DNA of 37,713 nucleotides from an uncultured Opitutales bacterium (GTDB lineage: Bacteria; Verrucomicrobiota; Verrucomicrobiia; Opitutales; Oceanipulchritudinaceae). Of this stretch, positions 2,731-24,793 are shown in pieces; position 1 is the first letter of the stretch; each line of letters begins with the position of its first letter. The translations under genes and the position numbers were made by a program. The notes below the pieces were generated by a model. It saw nothing but the letters and a program-made list of their open reading frames with translations. It ran no database searches and had not been told where the DNA came from. The stretch spans positions 1 through 37,713 of the forward strand of contig CAJXMX010000007.1 in NCBI GenBank assembly GCA_913056355.1. The letters are read 5' to 3'.

Positions 2731-3405
2731 ATGCGCGTCGTAGTGGTAGAGGATCAGGCCCTGTTCCGGGAATTCCTCGTTGATGCGCTGGAAGGGAAGC
2801 TGGATTGCCAGGTCGTCGGCCAGGCCGCCGACGGCGAAACGGCCCTTGATGTGGTCCGGGCACAAAAGCCCGATCTCCTGATCCTCGATATCCTGATCCC
2901 CAGGTTATCCGGTATCCATGTGGCCAGTATCCTGGGCAAGGAAATACCGACCCTGCGGATCATGGGCCTGTCCGCGGAACTGGATGTGAAGACCGTTCAC
3001 CAGGTCCACCGCCTGCAGCTGGCCGGCTTCATCGACAAGAACGACGCCGGACGGGAGGTCCTGCAGGAAGCCGTTGCCTGCATGCGAAAGCGTCAGCGCT
3101 ACTTTTCGCCGACCATGAGCAAAGTCCTGCGAAGCCTGAAAATCGATCCGCAGGCGTTTTCGAAGATCCTCACCCGCCGCGAGCAGGAAGTGCTGACCCT
3201 GGCCGGGGCCGGATGGAGCGACGACCATATCGCCGAGGCCCTCGGCCTGGGGGTGACCTCGGTCCAGACTCACCGCAAAAACCTCTTCCGCAAGCTGGAT
3301 GTGCACAGCACCCCGGAGTTGATCCGCTATGCCCACCAGGCGGGATTCTGGAAATCCGAATTTGAGCGCATGGATCTTCGGGACACCTATCACCTCCACG
3401 ACTAA
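2731..3405 (+). CDS. Response regulator, REC + LuxR-type HTH
   Basis: MRVVVVEDQALFREFL, DLLILDILIPRLSG, and LTRREQEVLTLAGAGWSDDHIAEALGLGVTSVQTHRKNLFRKL. Confidence 0.93.
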   Translation: MRVVVVEDQALFREFLVDALEGKLDCQVVGQAADGETALDVVRAQKPDLLILDILIPRLSGIHVASILGKEIPTLRIMGLSAELDVKTVHQVHRLQLAGFIDKNDAGREVLQEAVACMRKRQRYFSPTMSKVLRSLKIDPQAFSKILTRREQEVLTLAGAGWSDDHIAEALGLGVTSVQTHRKNLFRKLDVHSTPELIRYAHQAGFWKSEFERMDLRDTYHLHD

Positions 3406-3422: not shown

Positions 3423-6400
3423 CTAGAGGTGCTCGAATTCCTCGAAAAAGGACGGTAGGTGCCGCGCCAACTCTTTCCACTCGAGGCGGGCTCCCTCGAT
3501 ATCTCCGGCCATGGCCGCGACCTGCAGGTCCTTGAGCATTTCCGGCAGGACTCGCGGCCGCACCATGCTGAGGTGACCCAGCAGCTTGTGCGCCACGGAG
3601 CGGACCCGCCCGCAGTCGGAACCGCCGAGTGCGTCCACCAGTTGCTCCTCCAGCAGGAGGAAGTCGTTCCGCCAGCGGTCCTTGAGGGCTTTCCAGCCAT
3701 CGGCGGCCGGCATGTCTCCCAGGAGGCCCCGGCCGGACAGGTATTGTCCCGCCTCCGGTCCCTGGATCTTCTCCACCAGGGCATGCAGGCGTCTCTCGTC
3801 CAGCGGCTTGGTCAGGAAGGCGTTCATCCCATTCTGGAGGCACTTCTCCTGTACCTCGACCGTGGCGTACGCGGTCATCCCGACGATCACCATTTCCCTG
3901 GGCACCTGCCCGTCCGCGCGAAGGGCCCTGGCGATCTCCAGCCCGCTGAGGGACGGGAGGTCCCAGTCCAGGATGACCATCAAGAAACGGCCGCTCCGGG
4001 CCAACTCCAGGCCTTCCCTGCCATCGGCCACGGACTCCACCCGGCAACCCATCGCTCCCAGCTTGTCCTCCAGGATAATCCGGTTGTACTCCATGTCCTC
4101 CACCACCAGGACCGGGATTCCGGCAGCCCGCCCGGCGACGGTTTCCGGGGCGGCGGCGGCGCCGGTCAGAGGCCGCAGCTCGACCGGTATCAACACCCTG
4201 AATACGGAACCCTGCCCCGGCCGGGAATCCAATTCAAGGACCCCGTGCAGGCAGTCGACATAGGCCTTGACCAGGGCCAGGCCAATCCCGGTTCCCCGGA
4301 CCTTGGGGCCCTCCCGGGGCGCCTGGTAGAACTTCTGGAATACCTTTTCCGATTCCTCCCGGGAAATTCCGTCCCCGGTGTCCCTGACCTCGACTTCCAA
4401 AAGCGATTCCTCCCCTTCGCTCCGGGTCCGGATGGTCAATTCCACTTTTCCGGATCGCGTGAACTTGACCGCATTCGAGGTCAGGTTGCCGATGATTTGC
4501 TGGATCTTGCGCTCATCCGAGTATATCCCGGTCCCGGCGGACACCTTGACCGAGTCGTTCAGGACCAGTCCCTTGGCTTCCGCCTGGACCCGGTAAATCT
4601 GAATGATTCCCCCGGCCAGCTGGTGGATGTCGAACAAACGTTTATCAACCCTCAGCTGTCCCGAATCCATCCTCGCGAAATCCAGCACTTCCTCGACCGT
4701 GGAGCGCAGGTAATGGGCGGCCTTCTTGAGGGCCTTCAGGTTGCGCGCCGGGGCTGGCTGTCCCTCCCGTAACTCGCTGATCAGACCGATCACGCCGTTC
4801 AGCGGGTTGCGGATCTCATGGCTCAGGTTGGCGATGAAATCATCCTTGAAGCGGTTGGCCTTTTCCAATTCGCTGGTCCGCTCGCGCACCAGGCTCTTGA
4901 GGATTCGCTGGCGCCGCCGCAGGTAATGGCCCTGGCCCTGCAGAAAAGCGAAGACCAACAGCACCGCCAGGATCACATAGAGCCCCACCGCCAGGGGGCT
5001 CCGCAACCAATGCGGCCGGACATGGATCGGGACCGAAGCCATGGGCCCGGTTCGTCCGAAGGGATCCACGACCCGCACCTGCAGCTGGTAATCGCCGGCC
5101 ATCAGCTGCCCCAGCTCCCGCACGGCCAGCGCGTCCGGACGCCCCCAGGCTTCCTCGAGGCCCTTGATGCGGGATTGAAACCGGACCGGATAATCACTGC
5201 TGACCAGCGGCGCTCCGAACTGGAATCGCGGATTGGCTTCGCCAAACCCGAAATCCATTGCCTGCGCCGGGGCCAGCCCGGCAGCCACATCCCAGACCAC
5301 GGGAGCGGTCGGCTCCGGGATGCTCTCACTCAAGGACCGCTCAGCGACCAGCAGGCCCTTCCTTCCCGCGATGATAACTTCTTTCCCGCGGACCCGGATC
5401 TGCTGTATCCGACCCAGTGAGTTGAGGTCGACCCATGGAACCCTGCGCAATTCGGGCGGCCTGCCTGCCAGCCAGTCGACCTCAATGATGTAACTGGACT
5501 CGATGTCGTTGTCCCAGTAAACCAGCCAGCCCATGAGCCGCTGGTCCTCCGTCCACATGCAACCCGCCTGGAAATCCCGGCTACCGGGCTCGAACACCCC
5601 CTCCTCCCATGAATCCCCCGCGCCCCCGTACCGGTACAACTTACCTCCCAGAATCACCACCGGACCCGTCTCCGTCACGAAGACCGGCATCTCCCGGCCC
5701 TCCAGGACCTGCCCGGCAATCGACTCGTGCCGCTGCATCCGCAGGCCGGGTCCATCCGGATGAAACTCCAGCAGCGGGGACTTGTGCGACCAGGCCCAGA
5801 TCCGCCCCTGCCCGTCCGCTTCCAGCGCGTAGAGGTCCGTCCCCGCCTCGAACTGCTGGATGCGTTTCAGCTTATTGTCCTGGTCCAGTCGATACAATTC
5901 CAGCTGGTCCTTGAAACAGGTCAGCAGCCGCCCGTCCCCGAGCATGGCGAAGGCCCGGATCTCCCGGCCGAAATTATGCACTTCCCGCGTCTCCCGCCCG
6001 TCCCAGGACATCAGGCGGTCGTAGTTTAGGAAGTAGGCAACTTTATTAAAAGATAAACACTTATAAACCTCACCCTGGTGGATAATATTGTAGGTTGGCT
6101 TGGTTTGGCTCAAATCAAGTTCAACTAAGCCACTTTCAGTAGGTAACAGAATAGAGCTAGAAACTTGGATTATTCCATTTGGATTCCTGACAATTCCATC
6201 TTCAAAAATGAAGAAGCCTGCCAATTTTGGCTCCTTCCTCAAAACTGAAACTCCATCGAGTTGCAGCGCCATAACTTGATCGCGGGGATCAACAACGAAT
6301 TTTAGAATTATCGCACTAAGACCATCACCTTCGTCAATTACATCACAAATATTTTCCGTAGTATTAGAAAATTCTATTACTCCCCTATCAATAGTACCAA

Positions 6401-7190
6401 GATAGTAATTACCTTCTGAATTTCTGAATCCACAACTAGTAATGAGATGTTCTGATATTCCAAAATCAATATCCACCACTGACCCGTCGTGTTCTACCTC
6501 AAATATCCCATTACCTGAAAATCCTCTCAGGGAATTCCGGACAGTATCCTCCAAATATACTAAACTGTCATTTGCTAAGCCGGGATCATTTGAGATTAAC
6601 AACTTGCTATCATCCATAATCTTCCACAATCCGGAACCTACTTCATGAGCATATATTCCTGATTTCAGGAAATGAAATATGACCCTATGTTGGCCTTCAA
6701 ACTCCCAAGATGAAAAGTATCCTTCACTAACTTTAAACAAGCGCCTATCCGTACTTATCCAGAGGAAATCACCATCGTGATACAATTCCCATATTTCACC
6801 AAATCCATGATAGGCATCGGGAATCAGGTCCATTCGAGACTCATATTGCAAGGTTTGGGGATTCAAGACTCCAAGCGAATTGTAAGCTCCCAGCCATAAC
6901 ATGCCCTCTGGATCAAATGCCAATCCGCGAAGGTTAAAAAGCCGATCCGGCCCCAATGGAATTAAATGAATTCCATCCCATCTCCAGAGTCGATCCCTAC
7001 CAATATATGCCACACCCGAATCATCCCACACCACATTCCAGAAATATCCGCCTTGGCCAGATTCGTCAGCAATTATCTTTTTAGCTACAGGATCACGATC
7101 GCTTATTTCCTCACAGTATCCATTAGGTCTGATTCCCAACAGAAATACAAACGCAATTAAGATTAGGGATTTCTTAAAATCTAGACTCAT
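3423..7190 (-). CDS. Hybrid sensor histidine kinase: signal peptide, propeller repeats, Y_Y_Y, TM, HisKA, HATPase, REC, Hpt
   Basis: FIANLSHEIRNPLNGVIGLI (HisKA), NLTSNAVKFT / GTGIGLALVK (HATPase), PVLVVEDMEYNRIIL..VILDWDLPSLSG (REC), VAHKLLGHLSMV (Hpt). ATG start at 7190; the track start at 7199 is TTG. Confidence 0.92.
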   Translation of the reverse strand: MSLDFKKSLILIAFVFLLGIRPNGYCEEISDRDPVAKKIIADESGQGGYFWNVVWDDSGVAYIGRDRLWRWDGIHLIPLGPDRLFNLRGLAFDPEGMLWLGAYNSLGVLNPQTLQYESRMDLIPDAYHGFGEIWELYHDGDFLWISTDRRLFKVSEGYFSSWEFEGQHRVIFHFLKSGIYAHEVGSGLWKIMDDSKLLISNDPGLANDSLVYLEDTVRNSLRGFSGNGIFEVEHDGSVVDIDFGISEHLITSCGFRNSEGNYYLGTIDRGVIEFSNTTENICDVIDEGDGLSAIILKFVVDPRDQVMALQLDGVSVLRKEPKLAGFFIFEDGIVRNPNGIIQVSSSILLPTESGLVELDLSQTKPTYNIIHQGEVYKCLSFNKVAYFLNYDRLMSWDGRETREVHNFGREIRAFAMLGDGRLLTCFKDQLELYRLDQDNKLKRIQQFEAGTDLYALEADGQGRIWAWSHKSPLLEFHPDGPGLRMQRHESIAGQVLEGREMPVFVTETGPVVILGGKLYRYGGAGDSWEEGVFEPGSRDFQAGCMWTEDQRLMGWLVYWDNDIESSYIIEVDWLAGRPPELRRVPWVDLNSLGRIQQIRVRGKEVIIAGRKGLLVAERSLSESIPEPTAPVVWDVAAGLAPAQAMDFGFGEANPRFQFGAPLVSSDYPVRFQSRIKGLEEAWGRPDALAVRELGQLMAGDYQLQVRVVDPFGRTGPMASVPIHVRPHWLRSPLAVGLYVILAVLLVFAFLQGQGHYLRRRQRILKSLVRERTSELEKANRFKDDFIANLSHEIRNPLNGVIGLISELREGQPAPARNLKALKKAAHYLRSTVEEVLDFARMDSGQLRVDKRLFDIHQLAGGIIQIYRVQAEAKGLVLNDSVKVSAGTGIYSDERKIQQIIGNLTSNAVKFTRSGKVELTIRTRSEGEESLLEVEVRDTGDGISREESEKVFQKFYQAPREGPKVRGTGIGLALVKAYVDCLHGVLELDSRPGQGSVFRVLIPVELRPLTGAAAAPETVAGRAAGIPVLVVEDMEYNRIILEDKLGAMGCRVESVADGREGLELARSGRFLMVILDWDLPSLSGLEIARALRADGQVPREMVIVGMTAYATVEVQEKCLQNGMNAFLTKPLDERRLHALVEKIQGPEAGQYLSGRGLLGDMPAADGWKALKDRWRNDFLLLEEQLVDALGGSDCGRVRSVAHKLLGHLSMVRPRVLPEMLKDLQVAAMAGDIEGARLEWKELARHLPSFFEEFEHL

Positions 7191-7266
7191 GTAAAGCAAA
7201 AAGATTAATCAAATTTAGGTACATCCCCATTTGGAGGACTACCTGAAATAGCCTGATTCTCGCCCC

Positions 7267-7446
7267 ATGCGAATCACCTTATATTTCATCATTCGAGATG
7301 TGTTGGCCATTGTTTGTTTGTCCGTAGGAATAGTTCTTACCAGTCAAAATGAAGAATACCTAAAGTCAAACTTGGCTTATCATAAGGCCGATAGTAAATC
7401 GTATTTTCCAAGAGGAACTCTACCTTGTGGAAACAACCATCGCTAA
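7267..7446 (+). CDS. Possible 59-aa small ORF with N-terminal hydrophobic segment (not in ORF track)
   Basis: Own translation: MRITLYFIIRDVLAIVCLSVGIVLTSQNEEYLKSNLAYHKADSKSYFPRGTLPCGNNHR*. In-frame stop upstream at 7249-7251. No good Shine-Dalgarno at normal spacing. Just below the track's apparent 60-aa cutoff. Confidence 0.25.
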   Translation: MRITLYFIIRDVLAIVCLSVGIVLTSQNEEYLKSNLAYHKADSKSYFPRGTLPCGNNHR

Positions 7447-8357
7447 CCCCCATGCTGACCCTGGCGCCGGTGCGGTATGCGCGGATTCTGCGGGCCGCGG
7501 GGGGGCCAGTGGGTCTCATTGCATTGGGCCGGTTGCGGATCGGGGGCGTGGAATGCTACCGGGCCGGGGCACAACTGTCGGATCGCGGGTCGCTGCCGAT
7601 CGGGGAAAGGGCATTGTTTGGCCCGATTGACGGGAGCGGGACGGATCGATCACCGCTGCTGGCCAGGTACAAGGCGATTTCGGAGGCACTGGAGCGCTGG
7701 GCCTACCATGAGTGCCATGGTTCCGGGCGTGGGGACGCGTGCGGGCTGCATCTGGACCCGACCAGCAGCGGCATGGCCGCCTTTCCCGGACTTTGGAAGG
7801 GGCAAGCCCGGAGGCAGGCCCGGCGGGAGGCGGTGGAGCGCTGGTGCCTGGTCGAATGGTGGGCGGGACTCCTGGAGCACCGTCCCCTGACAGTGCCCTA
7901 CCCCGGTTTGAGCGGGATCGAAATTGACAATCCCATCGGCCGCGACCGGATGGTGATCATCTGGGGGAAGCTGGCCAACGGCAGGGTGGCCTACGGTTAC
8001 TCCGCCGCGCGGTCGCTGCGGGAAGCCACCTGGAAAGCCCTGGTTGAGCAGACCAGCTGCGCCGAGGTCCTTGCGGAACTGGCCGATGAACGGGCCGAAA
8101 GGGATCCGGCCCCGTGGGAGGATTTGAAAAACGAGCTGGAGCGGCGCGTCTTGTATTACTCCTCAACGGTGGGCCACCGCCGCTTTCGAGAGCGGCTGGA
8201 TAAACCGGTTTCAACAGCACGGAATCAGGCTCCCTCCCCGGTTTTCGACACGGAGGTGCCGGGCCCCTGGAGCCGTTATGCCACGGTCTGGCGGGTCCTG
8301 TACCCGACCCGCCGCCGGGACCACCACGATCCGGAGAGCCTGACCTTCTTCTGGTGA
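7425..8357 (+). CDS. Compact YcaO-like domain protein
   Basis: YcaO-family-like stretches: SPLLARYKAISEALERWAYHE, QARREAVERWCLVEWWAG, AYGYSAARSLREATWKALVEQTSCAEVL. TTG start at 7425 preceded by AGAGGA (7411-7416); alternative ATG at 7452. Confidence 0.6.
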   Translation: MWKQPSLTPMLTLAPVRYARILRAAGGPVGLIALGRLRIGGVECYRAGAQLSDRGSLPIGERALFGPIDGSGTDRSPLLARYKAISEALERWAYHECHGSGRGDACGLHLDPTSSGMAAFPGLWKGQARRQARREAVERWCLVEWWAGLLEHRPLTVPYPGLSGIEIDNPIGRDRMVIIWGKLANGRVAYGYSAARSLREATWKALVEQTSCAEVLAELADERAERDPAPWEDLKNELERRVLYYSSTVGHRRFRERLDKPVSTARNQAPSPVFDTEVPGPWSRYATVWRVLYPTRRRDHHDPESLTFFW

Positions 8358-20907: not shown

Positions 20908-20985
20908 TTTGAACGATGTTGTGATAGATTAATTTGAAAGGTCAATGATGAACAGACCCGCATGAACAGTGGGCTGTTCAAAAAA

Positions 20986-23373
20986 TCAGAAGCGGGTCCC
21001 GAAGGAGAAATTGAACTGGTTGCCGGTGTCGTTGGTCCAGATCAGGTTGCCCGCCTCGTCATAGAGCTCGGTCGAGGTGAGGGGCAAGCCGAGGTCCAGT
21101 CGAAGCGGATTTCCGAGGACCAGAAGGCGGATCCCGACCCCCCAGTTGTCATTGAAAGTGGAGGGATCGAAGTCGAAATCATCCCGGTTGACAAAGCCCC
21201 AGTCGTAAAAAATGGCCAGGCGCAGGGGTTCGGCCACCTTGATCGAGTATTCGAGGCTGGCGAAGGCGTAGGAATTGCCCCCGATCGGCTCACCGGTGTA
21301 GTTGTCCCCTTCGGCGCGGTTGCTGACCGGGCCGACGTCGCGGTAATCGAAGCCGCGCAGGGAATCCGGACCGCCGAGGTAGAACCGGTCAAAGAACGGA
21401 GCCGGGTTGTCGCTGTATTCCCAGAGGGATCCGGCCCGGGCCAGGATGGAGATGACCTGGTCCCCGAACTCGAAGGTGGGAACAAAGAAGGCACTGCGGG
21501 CCTCCAACTTGACGTACTCGGTGTCGCCGCCAACCCCGGCAAAGGTGTTGGCCACGGATATCCGGCTCCCCCGGGTGGTGAAAATGAGGTCGTTCCGGGT
21601 ATCCCGCCAGAGGGTCAGGGTCACCTTGGAGACAGAACGCGGACTGAAGGCGGCCTCTTCGCGGATGACCTGGGGCGCCTGGAAGCTGACATTGTCGAGG
21701 TCGACCACTTCAAAGCCGTAGGAGAGCTGGCCGTTGACCAGGCCGAAGAGGCGCTTGCGGAGGTAGATCTCGAGGCCGGTCCGCATTTCATCATAGGTAG
21801 CGCTGTTGTAGTCGGTCTCGCGACGGAAAAGCTCGAAACCGAAGGCCAGGCGCCGTTCAAAGAGCCAGGGTTCCTCGAAGGCCATGACCACTTCATTGGA
21901 ACGGGAGCCGATAGAACCGCGGAAGCGGAACTTCTGGCCGTCCCCCTGCAGGAAGGGGGAGCGCCACTTGAAGAGGTCGAAGTTCCCCTGGGAGATCTCG
22001 AAGAAGACCATGGCGCTCTCCAGGGAGCTGAAGCCGGCCCCGAACTGGAAGTTGCCGGTGCGGCCTTCCTTGACCCGGATCTTCAGGTTGCGCTTGCCGG
22101 GAACATTGGTCGGCTCGGGGGTGAGCTGCACTTCCTCGAAGAACCGTGTGTTCTTGAGGATGGCCTCGCTGTTCTTCATGTAGACGAGGTTGAAGGTGCG
22201 GCCGGGAGCGAGGGCCAGTTCACGGATGATGACGATGCTCTTGGTCTTGGTGTTGCCCTCGATGACAATGGATTCCACGTCGAACTTCTCGCTCTCCCGG
22301 ATCCGGTAGATGAGGTCGATGTCACCGGACTCGATGTTGGCCCGCCGCTCCGGGCGGATGGAAGTGTCGAGGTAGCCGACGGACCCGTAGATGTTGGTCA
22401 GCCGCTCAATGTCCTCATCGAGGATTTCCGGGGAAAAGTAGTCCCCCGGCAGGAGGTCGATGGAGGCATAGAGCAGCGGCGTCGGGAAAATGGTATTTCC
22501 CTCGAAGCTGATGTTGCCGACCTTGTACTGCCGGCCTTCGTCGATCCGGATGGTGATGACAATCTCGCCGGGCTTGGGATAATCGAGGGAGACATTGGAT
22601 TCCGGGATGCTGACGTCGAGGTAACCGGCGTTCAGGTAAAGGGTGCGGAGCTTCTCGAGGTCCTCCTGGAACTTGACCTCGTCGAAGCGGCCGGAGCCGG
22701 TCAGCCAGGAAAGAAACCAGCGCCGGCGGGTTTCCATCTCCTTCTTGAGGCGGCGCCCCGAAAAGGCGGTGTTGCCGACAAACTCGACCGACTCGATCTT
22801 GAGTTTCTGTCCCTCGTTGATGAGGAAGGTGACCCGCCCTTCGCCGGTGTCCGGGTTCTTGTCCAGGCGGTAGTCGACGCGGACCTCGGTGTATCCCTTG
22901 TCACGGTAGTATTCCGTCAGGGTGTCCGCATCGCGCCGGATCCGCCGCTCATCAAGGCTTTGCCCGACCCGGACCTCTACTTTGCGGCGCAGGCGGCTGC
23001 TGCTGATCTTCTTGTTCCCGGCGATCTCGATGGAGGAAATCTTGTAACGGGCCTGGACGGTAAAAATGACCCGCACTTGTCCGCCCGGCATGTTCTCGGT
23101 CCGGGCCTCGATGTAGTCGAAGAGCCGGGTCATGTAGAGGCTTCGAATGGAACGGTCGACCAGGTTCTGGCTGAAAGGCATGCCCTCCCGGATCTGCAGA
23201 CGGGCCCGGATGGCCTCGTCACTGACATTGCGGATGTCAACAAACTCGATCTTGATTTCCCCGACAATGGGTTCGGCCGACTGGGCCGGGACCTGGCTCT
23301 GGCCCTGGGCAGTTGCTGGATGCAGGACGGCCAGGACAATCCCAAGGATCAGGGTGTGAATAAGACCTCTCAT
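20986..23373 (-). CDS. bamA: Outer membrane assembly protein BamA (POTRA + beta-barrel)
   Basis: POTRA repeats (VEFVGNTAFSGRRLKKEM, ISFEGNTIFPTPLL), FYLGGPDSLRGFDYRDVGP, terminal Phe (FNFSFGTRF). Start set at MRGLIHTLILG after the dnaB stop; the ORF extends to 23409. Confidence 0.94.
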   Translation of the reverse strand: MRGLIHTLILGIVLAVLHPATAQGQSQVPAQSAEPIVGEIKIEFVDIRNVSDEAIRARLQIREGMPFSQNLVDRSIRSLYMTRLFDYIEARTENMPGGQVRVIFTVQARYKISSIEIAGNKKISSSRLRRKVEVRVGQSLDERRIRRDADTLTEYYRDKGYTEVRVDYRLDKNPDTGEGRVTFLINEGQKLKIESVEFVGNTAFSGRRLKKEMETRRRWFLSWLTGSGRFDEVKFQEDLEKLRTLYLNAGYLDVSIPESNVSLDYPKPGEIVITIRIDEGRQYKVGNISFEGNTIFPTPLLYASIDLLPGDYFSPEILDEDIERLTNIYGSVGYLDTSIRPERRANIESGDIDLIYRIRESEKFDVESIVIEGNTKTKSIVIIRELALAPGRTFNLVYMKNSEAILKNTRFFEEVQLTPEPTNVPGKRNLKIRVKEGRTGNFQFGAGFSSLESAMVFFEISQGNFDLFKWRSPFLQGDGQKFRFRGSIGSRSNEVVMAFEEPWLFERRLAFGFELFRRETDYNSATYDEMRTGLEIYLRKRLFGLVNGQLSYGFEVVDLDNVSFQAPQVIREEAAFSPRSVSKVTLTLWRDTRNDLIFTTRGSRISVANTFAGVGGDTEYVKLEARSAFFVPTFEFGDQVISILARAGSLWEYSDNPAPFFDRFYLGGPDSLRGFDYRDVGPVSNRAEGDNYTGEPIGGNSYAFASLEYSIKVAEPLRLAIFYDWGFVNRDDFDFDPSTFNDNWGVGIRLLVLGNPLRLDLGLPLTSTELYDEAGNLIWTNDTGNQFNFSFGTRF

Positions 23374-23377
23374 AAAA

Positions 23378-24793
23378 TTATTCTTCAGGCTGGGAAGTGT
23401 AGTTCTCAAAGCGAGTAAAATCAGGAATAAAGGTTAGGGAGACGCTGCCGGTAGGCCCGTTGCGCTGCTTGGCGATGATCAGCTCCCGCTCGCGGGAAGC
23501 TTGGGGAACGACCACGTTTTCCTCGGAATCCCGCCTCGCGGCAAGGAGGAAAACGACGTCCGCGTCCTGCTCGATGGATCCCGACTCGCGCAAATCGGAG
23601 ATCCGGGGCTGCCGGTTTTCCTTTTCCGAGGCCCGGTTGAGCTGGCTCAGGACCAGGACCGGAACGTTCAATTCCTTGGCCATGGCCTTGATGCCGCGGC
23701 TGATCTCGGAAATCTGCTGCTCCCGGGGAACCCGCGAGTCGGTCCCGCTGATCAGTTGCAGGTAGTCCACCACGATCAGGTCGATCCCGTGCTGGCGGCG
23801 GATCCGCCGGGCCTTGGCCCGCATTTCCAGGATGTTGATCCCGCTGGAGTCGTCGACCCAGATCGGGGCGTCCTTGAGCACCGCCGCCTCCCTGGCCAGA
23901 AGCCGCTGCTGCTCGTGGCTGAGCATCCGGTCACGGACCCGGCGCATGCTGACCTTGGCCCGGCCGCAGAGCATTCGCATGGCCAACTGCTCGGCGGGCA
24001 TTTCCAGGCTGAAGACAAGAATTCCCTTGCCATTGCCCCGGGCCGGCAGAGCCACATTCTCGGCGATATTCATCCCGAGGGAGGTCTTCCCCATCGAGGG
24101 CCGGGCGGCCAGGACCACCATTTGCCCGGGATGAAGTCCGAAGGTCATCTTGTCGATATCGACATAACCGGTCAGGACCCCCTCCTCGTGCTTGCCGTCG
24201 AGGATGCTGCGGATCATATGGGCCGCCCGGTCCACCGAGAGGCTGAAGGCCTGGGCCGAGTCGCCCAGCCGGTCCTCGTTAATGGCCAGGATCCGCGCTT
24301 CCGCCTCGTTGATGAAGTTCTCCAGCTGGTCCTGGTTGACGTAGGCCTCGTCGGCGATGTGCGTGGTGGCCTCGATAAGCCGGCGCAGCAGCCACTTCTG
24401 GCGGACAATCTCCAGCCAGTAACGGGCGTTGGCGATGGACTCGATCCGGTTGGTCAGCTGTGTGATCACGGTCGCCCCGCCGACCAGCTTGAGCAGCGGG
24501 GTGTCGGGATCCACCAGCCGTTGCTGCCGCTTGAGCCACTCCATGCTGGAGACCGGACGGCTGGCCAGGGCGTCCATCACCGAGACCTCGTCCAGACCCT
24601 TGTTTTGGGTGAAGAGGTCGATGATGACCTGGAAGATGACCTTATGGGCCGGCTTGTAGAAGGAATCCGGCTGCAGGCCGACCTCCATGCAGTCGGAAAC
24701 GATCTGCTGCTGGGGGTCGATCAGGCAGGATCCCAGCAAGCCTTCCTCCGCCTCCACACTGTGCGGCGGGATGCGTCCTCGCTCCTCAGTCAT
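23378..24793 (-). CDS. dnaB: Replicative DNA helicase
   Basis: PHSVEAEEGLLGSCLID, VLAARPSMGKTSLGMNIAENVA (Walker A), DLIVVDYLQLI, SQLNRASEKENRQPRISDLRESGSIEQDADVVFLL. Confidence 0.97.
   Translation of the reverse strand: MTEERGRIPPHSVEAEEGLLGSCLIDPQQQIVSDCMEVGLQPDSFYKPAHKVIFQVIIDLFTQNKGLDEVSVMDALASRPVSSMEWLKRQQRLVDPDTPLLKLVGGATVITQLTNRIESIANARYWLEIVRQKWLLRRLIEATTHIADEAYVNQDQLENFINEAEARILAINEDRLGDSAQAFSLSVDRAAHMIRSILDGKHEEGVLTGYVDIDKMTFGLHPGQMVVLAARPSMGKTSLGMNIAENVALPARGNGKGILVFSLEMPAEQLAMRMLCGRAKVSMRRVRDRMLSHEQQRLLAREAAVLKDAPIWVDDSSGINILEMRAKARRIRRQHGIDLIVVDYLQLISGTDSRVPREQQISEISRGIKAMAKELNVPVLVLSQLNRASEKENRQPRISDLRESGSIEQDADVVFLLAARRDSEENVVVPQASRERELIIAKQRNGPTGSVSLTFIPDFTRFENYTSQPEE

Follow-up and report, generated by a model that had tools for sequence, protein, structure and literature searches.

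Most of what is known of peptide-based quorum sensing with histidine kinases comes from Gram-positive bacteria. The agr system of Staphylococcus comprises a peptide precursor, a processing protein, a kinase and a regulator and occurs in variable specificity groups, and production of nisin is autoregulated via NisRK. A different sensor type is represented by the "hybrid two-component systems" (HTCS) of Bacteroides, among which those of the BT4663 type carry a DNA-binding domain on the same protein; BT4663 itself senses heparin/heparan sulphate. In the polymorphic ComQXPA system of Bacillus, the kinase is variable in its N-terminal sensor half and conserved in its cytoplasmic part (PMC4008528).

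Here, a 37,713-nucleotide stretch of DNA from an uncultured Opitutales bacterium ("the window") illustrates how a hybrid kinase of mosaic appearance may have arisen. An AT-rich tract within it is probably the variable cassette for signal and receptor in a YcaO-linked peptide signalling module of four genes that resembles ComQXPA or agr. The balance of evidence leans slightly toward a broader proposal, that such modules form an undescribed family of peptide-based cell-cell signalling systems in the Verrucomicrobiota (Opitutales), in which YcaO-modified peptides, double-propeller kinases and co-varying cassettes would define separate communication groups. In the open-licence literature searched, no account of a YcaO-kinase-peptide module came to light. 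The features of the locus are as follows.

2731 to 3405, plus strand: LuxR/NarL-type response regulator, convergent with the kinase gene
3423 to 7190, minus strand: hybrid histidine kinase with signal sequence, two propellers, Y_Y_Y-like region, transmembrane segment near 5012, HisKA, HATPase_c, REC and an Hpt-like C-terminus
3774 to 4847, minus strand: Pfam domains of the kinase (HisKA 4659-4847, HATPase_c 4179-4517, REC 3774-4112)
6022 to 7446, no strand: AT-rich tract, 39.8% GC, with the first sensor half of the kinase, the intergenic region and a small ORF
6026 to 7109, minus strand: first-propeller coding part of the kinase; the left tract edge lies at its junction with the second propeller
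7191 to 7266, no strand: intergenic region between the divergent genes, where the promoters presumably lie
7267 to 7446, plus strand: candidate precursor peptide of 59 aa, MRITLYFIIRDVLAIVCLSVGIVLTSQNEEYLKSNLAYHKADSKSYFPRGTLPCGNNHR, a small ORF upstream of the YcaO-like gene
7414 to 7443, plus strand: its C-terminal core GTLPCGNNHR (compare GTLPCGSSKKY in G002 and CSLPCGNNRHNR in G003)
7452 to 8357, plus strand: YcaO-like enzyme (remote match) with conserved SEAxER and EAxER helices, divergent from the kinase gene

Extent and Composition of the AT-rich Tract

The best-scoring AT-rich segment of the window covers 1425 bp, its GC content comparing with a window mean of 61.2% and about 63% in the surroundings; its score is 164, that of the next-best segment 24. 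Among coding dips in some 437 kb of sampled sequence of this genome, it also ranks first, with a score of 142 as against about 40 for the runner-up. Within the kinase ORF, GC at third codon positions (GC3) rises at codon 387, from 0.35 to 0.82 (delta lnL 135, edge placed to about ±5 codons), and GC at the first and second positions is shifted as well. The sharp break that the first-pass annotation had placed near 6030 inside an uninterrupted kinase ORF, as well as the return of GC-rich sequence by about 7450, are thus borne out by the edges at 6022 and 7446. Its figure of about 390 AT-rich N-terminal residues agrees with the step at codon 387, although what it took to be the first propeller blades is the entire first propeller.

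The kinase gene leaves about 255 bp of the tract uncovered. Beyond the signal sequence and first propeller, it spans the intergenic region and the plus-strand 59-codon ORF, which had escaped the first-pass annotation. The TAA of this small ORF is the last codon of the tract, just before the YcaO-like ATG at 7452, and the left edge (residue ~392) falls at the junction of the two propellers, a low-confidence linker in the AlphaFold2 model. A consensus scan of the intergenic region for promoters and terminators found none. On another contig of the same genome, a 9-kb island at 47% GC (L050, 10948-19939; G000:C29) lies a few kb from a variant YcaO/kinase module.

The Kinase and Its Orthologues

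The kinase starts at an ATG at 7190, with a TTG at 7199 as an alternative start. Of the domain layout proposed earlier, HisKA, HATPase_c and REC are recognized by Pfam, Hpt gives only a weak match in orthologues, and Y_Y_Y, like Reg_prop, gives weak profile matches in an orthologue. A Reg_prop family search of the same genome returned no matches, because the blades of the kinase are too divergent. The AlphaFold2 model of the sensor, built from three sequences with a mean pLDDT of only 66.7, is nearly all beta, with the weak linker at model residues 346-362 (protein residues 376-392), and Foldseek places it nearest to the double-propeller sensors BT4673 and BT4663. No DNA-binding domain is found by Pfam on the kinase itself; the LuxR-type regulator is a separate protein.

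The locus is syntenic in the genus, in the order helicase, LptF-like, methyltransferase, YcaO-like, kinase, LuxR-type regulator, FAD oxidase and IspDF (the contig of G003, Verrucomicrobia bacterium GSL.Bin15, starts at the methyltransferase). Elsewhere in the window, an 818-aa ORF without a Pfam match (20962-23418, plus strand) is accompanied by a long antisense open frame. The N-terminal and C-terminal halves of the kinase do not have the separate relatives predicted earlier, as both are nearest to G003, G002 and then G009, an Opitutales bacterium of another genus. Nor is the internal GC step peculiar to this genome, since the orthologues of G001, G002 and G003 also dip in the same propeller region. 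Their dips overlap but differ in extent, covering query residues ~277-416 in G001 (whose contig starts at query residue 222, and which has some contigs masked as N and its background rate unused), 233-378 in G002 and 175-458 in G003. The G002 dip stops short of the peptide gene, which speaks against a cassette. All four genus members have a GC3 of 0.25-0.36 in the shared core, as opposed to 0.48-0.82 in the kinase part; the G009 orthologue has no dip. Fourfold sites are near random identity between most genus pairs, and with such saturation one old import is insufficient to account for the dips, so that the pattern has been renewed or maintained and a single ancient import kept as a relic is ruled out. 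Import of a foreign sensor into the kinase of the window is therefore only partly supported.

Block Replacement in Close Relatives

Replacement of the sensor by recombination within the propeller, as first proposed, does occur at this locus in close relatives, although in the window the shared relatives of the two halves and the genus-wide dips tell against it. In one such pair from a single genus, L157 and L158, the kinases are 92% identical and the sensors 37%, with fourfold sites saturated in the sensor only and unsaturated in the kinase. The divergent block, at about 0.5 identity as compared with about 0.88 outside it, starts at the sensor/kinase border, takes in the intergenic region and the peptide gene, and ends at approximately YcaO codon 60. 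As synonymous saturation is confined to this block, it has a different history and has not merely undergone fast protein change; like the tract of the window, it includes the candidate ligand gene. In a second pair, L077 and L080, nucleotide identity drops to 0.50-0.58 in an internal N-terminal block, which ends on the right at a GC step that coincides with a step in synonymous divergence. These two have an identical peptide core despite partly different first propellers, an observation that runs counter to a joint cassette. Most other kinase pairs of these species, taken as a control, diverge similarly in sensor and kinase.

Sensors are also exchanged in L204/L205 and L208/L209 (G196 vs G201), in which sensors are 28-32% identical and kinase cores 84-92%, with no YcaO gene in view; L204/L205 adjoins a peptidase-like gene. 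Sensor swapping is thus wider than the module and not specific to it. As the tract of the window is without a close relative, its own arrival by recombination is argued by analogy with these pairs.

A rival explanation is that composition may change locally without any import, either because a highly divergent region escapes a GC-keeping force and settles at an AT-biased equilibrium or because AT-rich codons are selected. The low GC3 of the shared core in all four genus members, despite a higher GC3 in their kinase parts, and the saturation of fourfold sites are consistent with this explanation, as is the weak conservation of the core, the lowest in the protein (20-34% identity). We nevertheless consider it unlikely, given the abruptness of the GC3 edge in the window, the accompanying shift at the other two codon positions, the lack of a dip in G009 and in most other propeller kinases, and the match of the GC step with the step in synonymous divergence in L077/L080. 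Low-GC3 blocks occur in 23 of 39 module sensors as compared with 1 of 19 other propeller kinases (Fisher p 6e-5, with relatedness ignored, the module copies not being phylogenetically independent); the one dip among the latter is weak, so that a generic property of propeller kinases is rejected.

A Linked Candidate Peptide and YcaO-like Enzyme

Among 373 genomes surveyed from the order, 40 carry the YcaO-like gene, in 43 copies, and in a sample of 388 genomes across the phylum all 14 carriers fall within the order and none outside. A divergent propeller hybrid kinase adjoins 42 of the 43 copies, the remaining one being at a contig end, and the LuxR-type regulator is also present in most modules. 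The assignment to YcaO is remote: the protein scores 18-22 bits against Pfam PF02624 (cut-off 25.7), falls below NCBIfam cut-offs too, and matches YcaO/SagD and not isoprenyl transferase. The SEAxER and EAxER motifs are invariant in alignments, and their Glu/Arg helices may correspond to the ATP-Mg site of YcaO enzymes. A profile search against solved structures gave no match, and the AlphaFold2 model, from three sequences, was poor (pLDDT 42.5) and left unused. A second module type (L050, L081, L180, L181, L182, L183) has its regulator on the kinase strand and peptide cores with IYC- or LC-type ends, and both types occur in G000 and G002; three modules (L170, L172 and L176) have a much shorter kinase open frame, of 681-819 aa, which may reflect a split gene, a frameshift or another receptor design.

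The small ORF lies upstream of the YcaO-like gene and on its strand in all 43 modules. A strict ORF test recovers it in 29 (0.9 ± 0.7 for shuffled sequence, none for the opposite strand), and the other 14 are assigned by eye, a softer basis. Its N-terminus is conserved and signal-like, basic and then hydrophobic, with AAE and LDP often next, and its C-terminus is variable, often with a CxxPC-like core; 40 of the 43 peptides have Cys among their last 25 residues, and Trp makes up about 1% of the last 16. In this combination of a short precursor adjoining a modifying-type enzyme gene, a conserved leader and a variable core, the modules share a trait of RiPP clusters. Tandem cores occur in four modules, as three copies of GCAQLPCYHRDFN in L077 and L080, four of AFCDTVCNF in L161 and three of DTCTWPCED in L173; such repetition in one precursor resembles multi-copy pheromone precursors. 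Pfam and NCBIfam give no meaningful family match for the four peptides tested, and no Shine-Dalgarno-like sequence lies directly 5' of the peptide ATG of the window. Mean GC is 53% in the peptide ORFs and 62% in the kinase parts.

Across 38 modules, similarity of the peptide core is correlated with that of the sensor once kinase similarity is held constant (partial rank correlation 0.35, reached in 0 of 300 permutations). The correlation holds after each clade is dropped (0/200 each) and with one module per genus (1/200). The core shows no such relation to the YcaO N-terminus (0.01) and no positive correlation with its own leader, though both are physically nearer to it than the sensor.

These associations bear on what the kinase senses. 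The first-pass annotation envisaged only an exchange of the sensor. On such a view, the kinase would respond, as BT4663 does, to a glycan or another outside ligand, with the small ORF and YcaO-like product being unrelated or accessory. Both the resemblance of the fold to glycan-sensing hybrid two-component sensors and the two swapped kinases with no YcaO gene in view accord with that possibility. Yet it appears decidedly unlikely, as YcaO-like gene, small ORF and kinase are almost always linked, the co-variation of core with sensor goes beyond that with kinase and YcaO, and the peptide gene lies inside the swapped block. A modified-peptide bacteriocin whose sensor controls its own production, in the manner of nisin, is an equally doubtful candidate. 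YcaO enzymes make peptide natural products (PMC7298704), and Cys-containing cores with tandem repeats would suit an antimicrobial peptide; however, the module contains no recognized transporter, immunity gene or additional modification enzyme (cyclodehydratase, dehydrogenase), most copies being viewed within a few kb, and the constant partners are instead the kinase and regulator. Finally, an assembly chimera, conceivable for a single contig of a draft in 425 contigs, is very unlikely, as the ORF is unbroken and aligns with its orthologues over both edges, synteny extends on both sides and three independently assembled relatives show similar dips.

A Proposed Mechanism and Its Significance

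Read from gene order and co-variation, the signalling module would comprise a small precursor peptide, a YcaO-like modifying enzyme, a divergent double-propeller hybrid kinase and a LuxR-type regulator. The YcaO-like protein would modify the variable C-terminal core of the precursor, the signal-like N-terminus would direct its export, and the periplasmic propellers of the kinase would read the peptide, with phosphate predicted to pass from the kinase through REC/Hpt to the regulator. Peptide core and sensor may diversify jointly and be swapped as a block by recombination while kinase and regulator stay conserved, an exchange that would leave behind cassettes with a different GC content, as a rule a lower one. 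The AT-rich block of the window reaches from the stop codon of the peptide to the junction of the two propellers.

If this holds, the module extends histidine-kinase peptide quorum sensing to the Verrucomicrobiota and suggests a signalling role for YcaO-like enzymes as well as a peptide ligand for propellers of the glycan-sensor type. The mosaic-looking kinase would then be explained by a recurrent mechanism instead of a one-off transfer, and the 43 natural signal/receptor pairs make ligand specificity directly testable.

Comparison with Known Systems

Each of the described systems shares some of these features. A variable Cys/Ser/Thr core precursor beside a YcaO gene is also found for YcaO-dependent azoline, thioamide and amidine peptides (cf. 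PMC7298704, PMC10352776), but the match to YcaO here is a remote one, kinase and regulator are the constant partners, and neither a partner cyclodehydratase or dehydrogenase nor a transporter is recognized. The Bacteroides HTCS BT4663 and BT4673 likewise combine a periplasmic sensor of two propellers and Y_Y_Y with kinase and REC, whereas the kinase described here has its regulator on another protein and is linked to a pair of peptide and YcaO-like genes. The agr system resembles the module in uniting a peptide precursor, an enzyme or processing protein, a kinase and a regulator with variable specificity; it differs in its membrane protease AgrB and transmembrane sensor AgrC and has nothing YcaO-like, while a YcaO-like gene stands beside the precursor in all modules here.

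Differences from ComQXPA are numerous. ComQ is an isoprenyl transferase and the enzyme here is YcaO-like, the peptides, with so little Trp near their C-termini, are not of the Trp-modified ComX type, and neither peptide nor enzyme is homologous. ComP senses by transmembrane helices, in contrast to the periplasmic double propeller, and the genes here are divergent, encode a hybrid kinase with REC and belong to Gram-negative Verrucomicrobiota. In both, however, a signal precursor, a modifying enzyme, a histidine kinase receptor and a regulator with a LuxR-type domain occupy one locus, and here too, as L157/L158 and the co-variation indicate, signal and sensor half are polymorphic while kinase and regulator are conserved.
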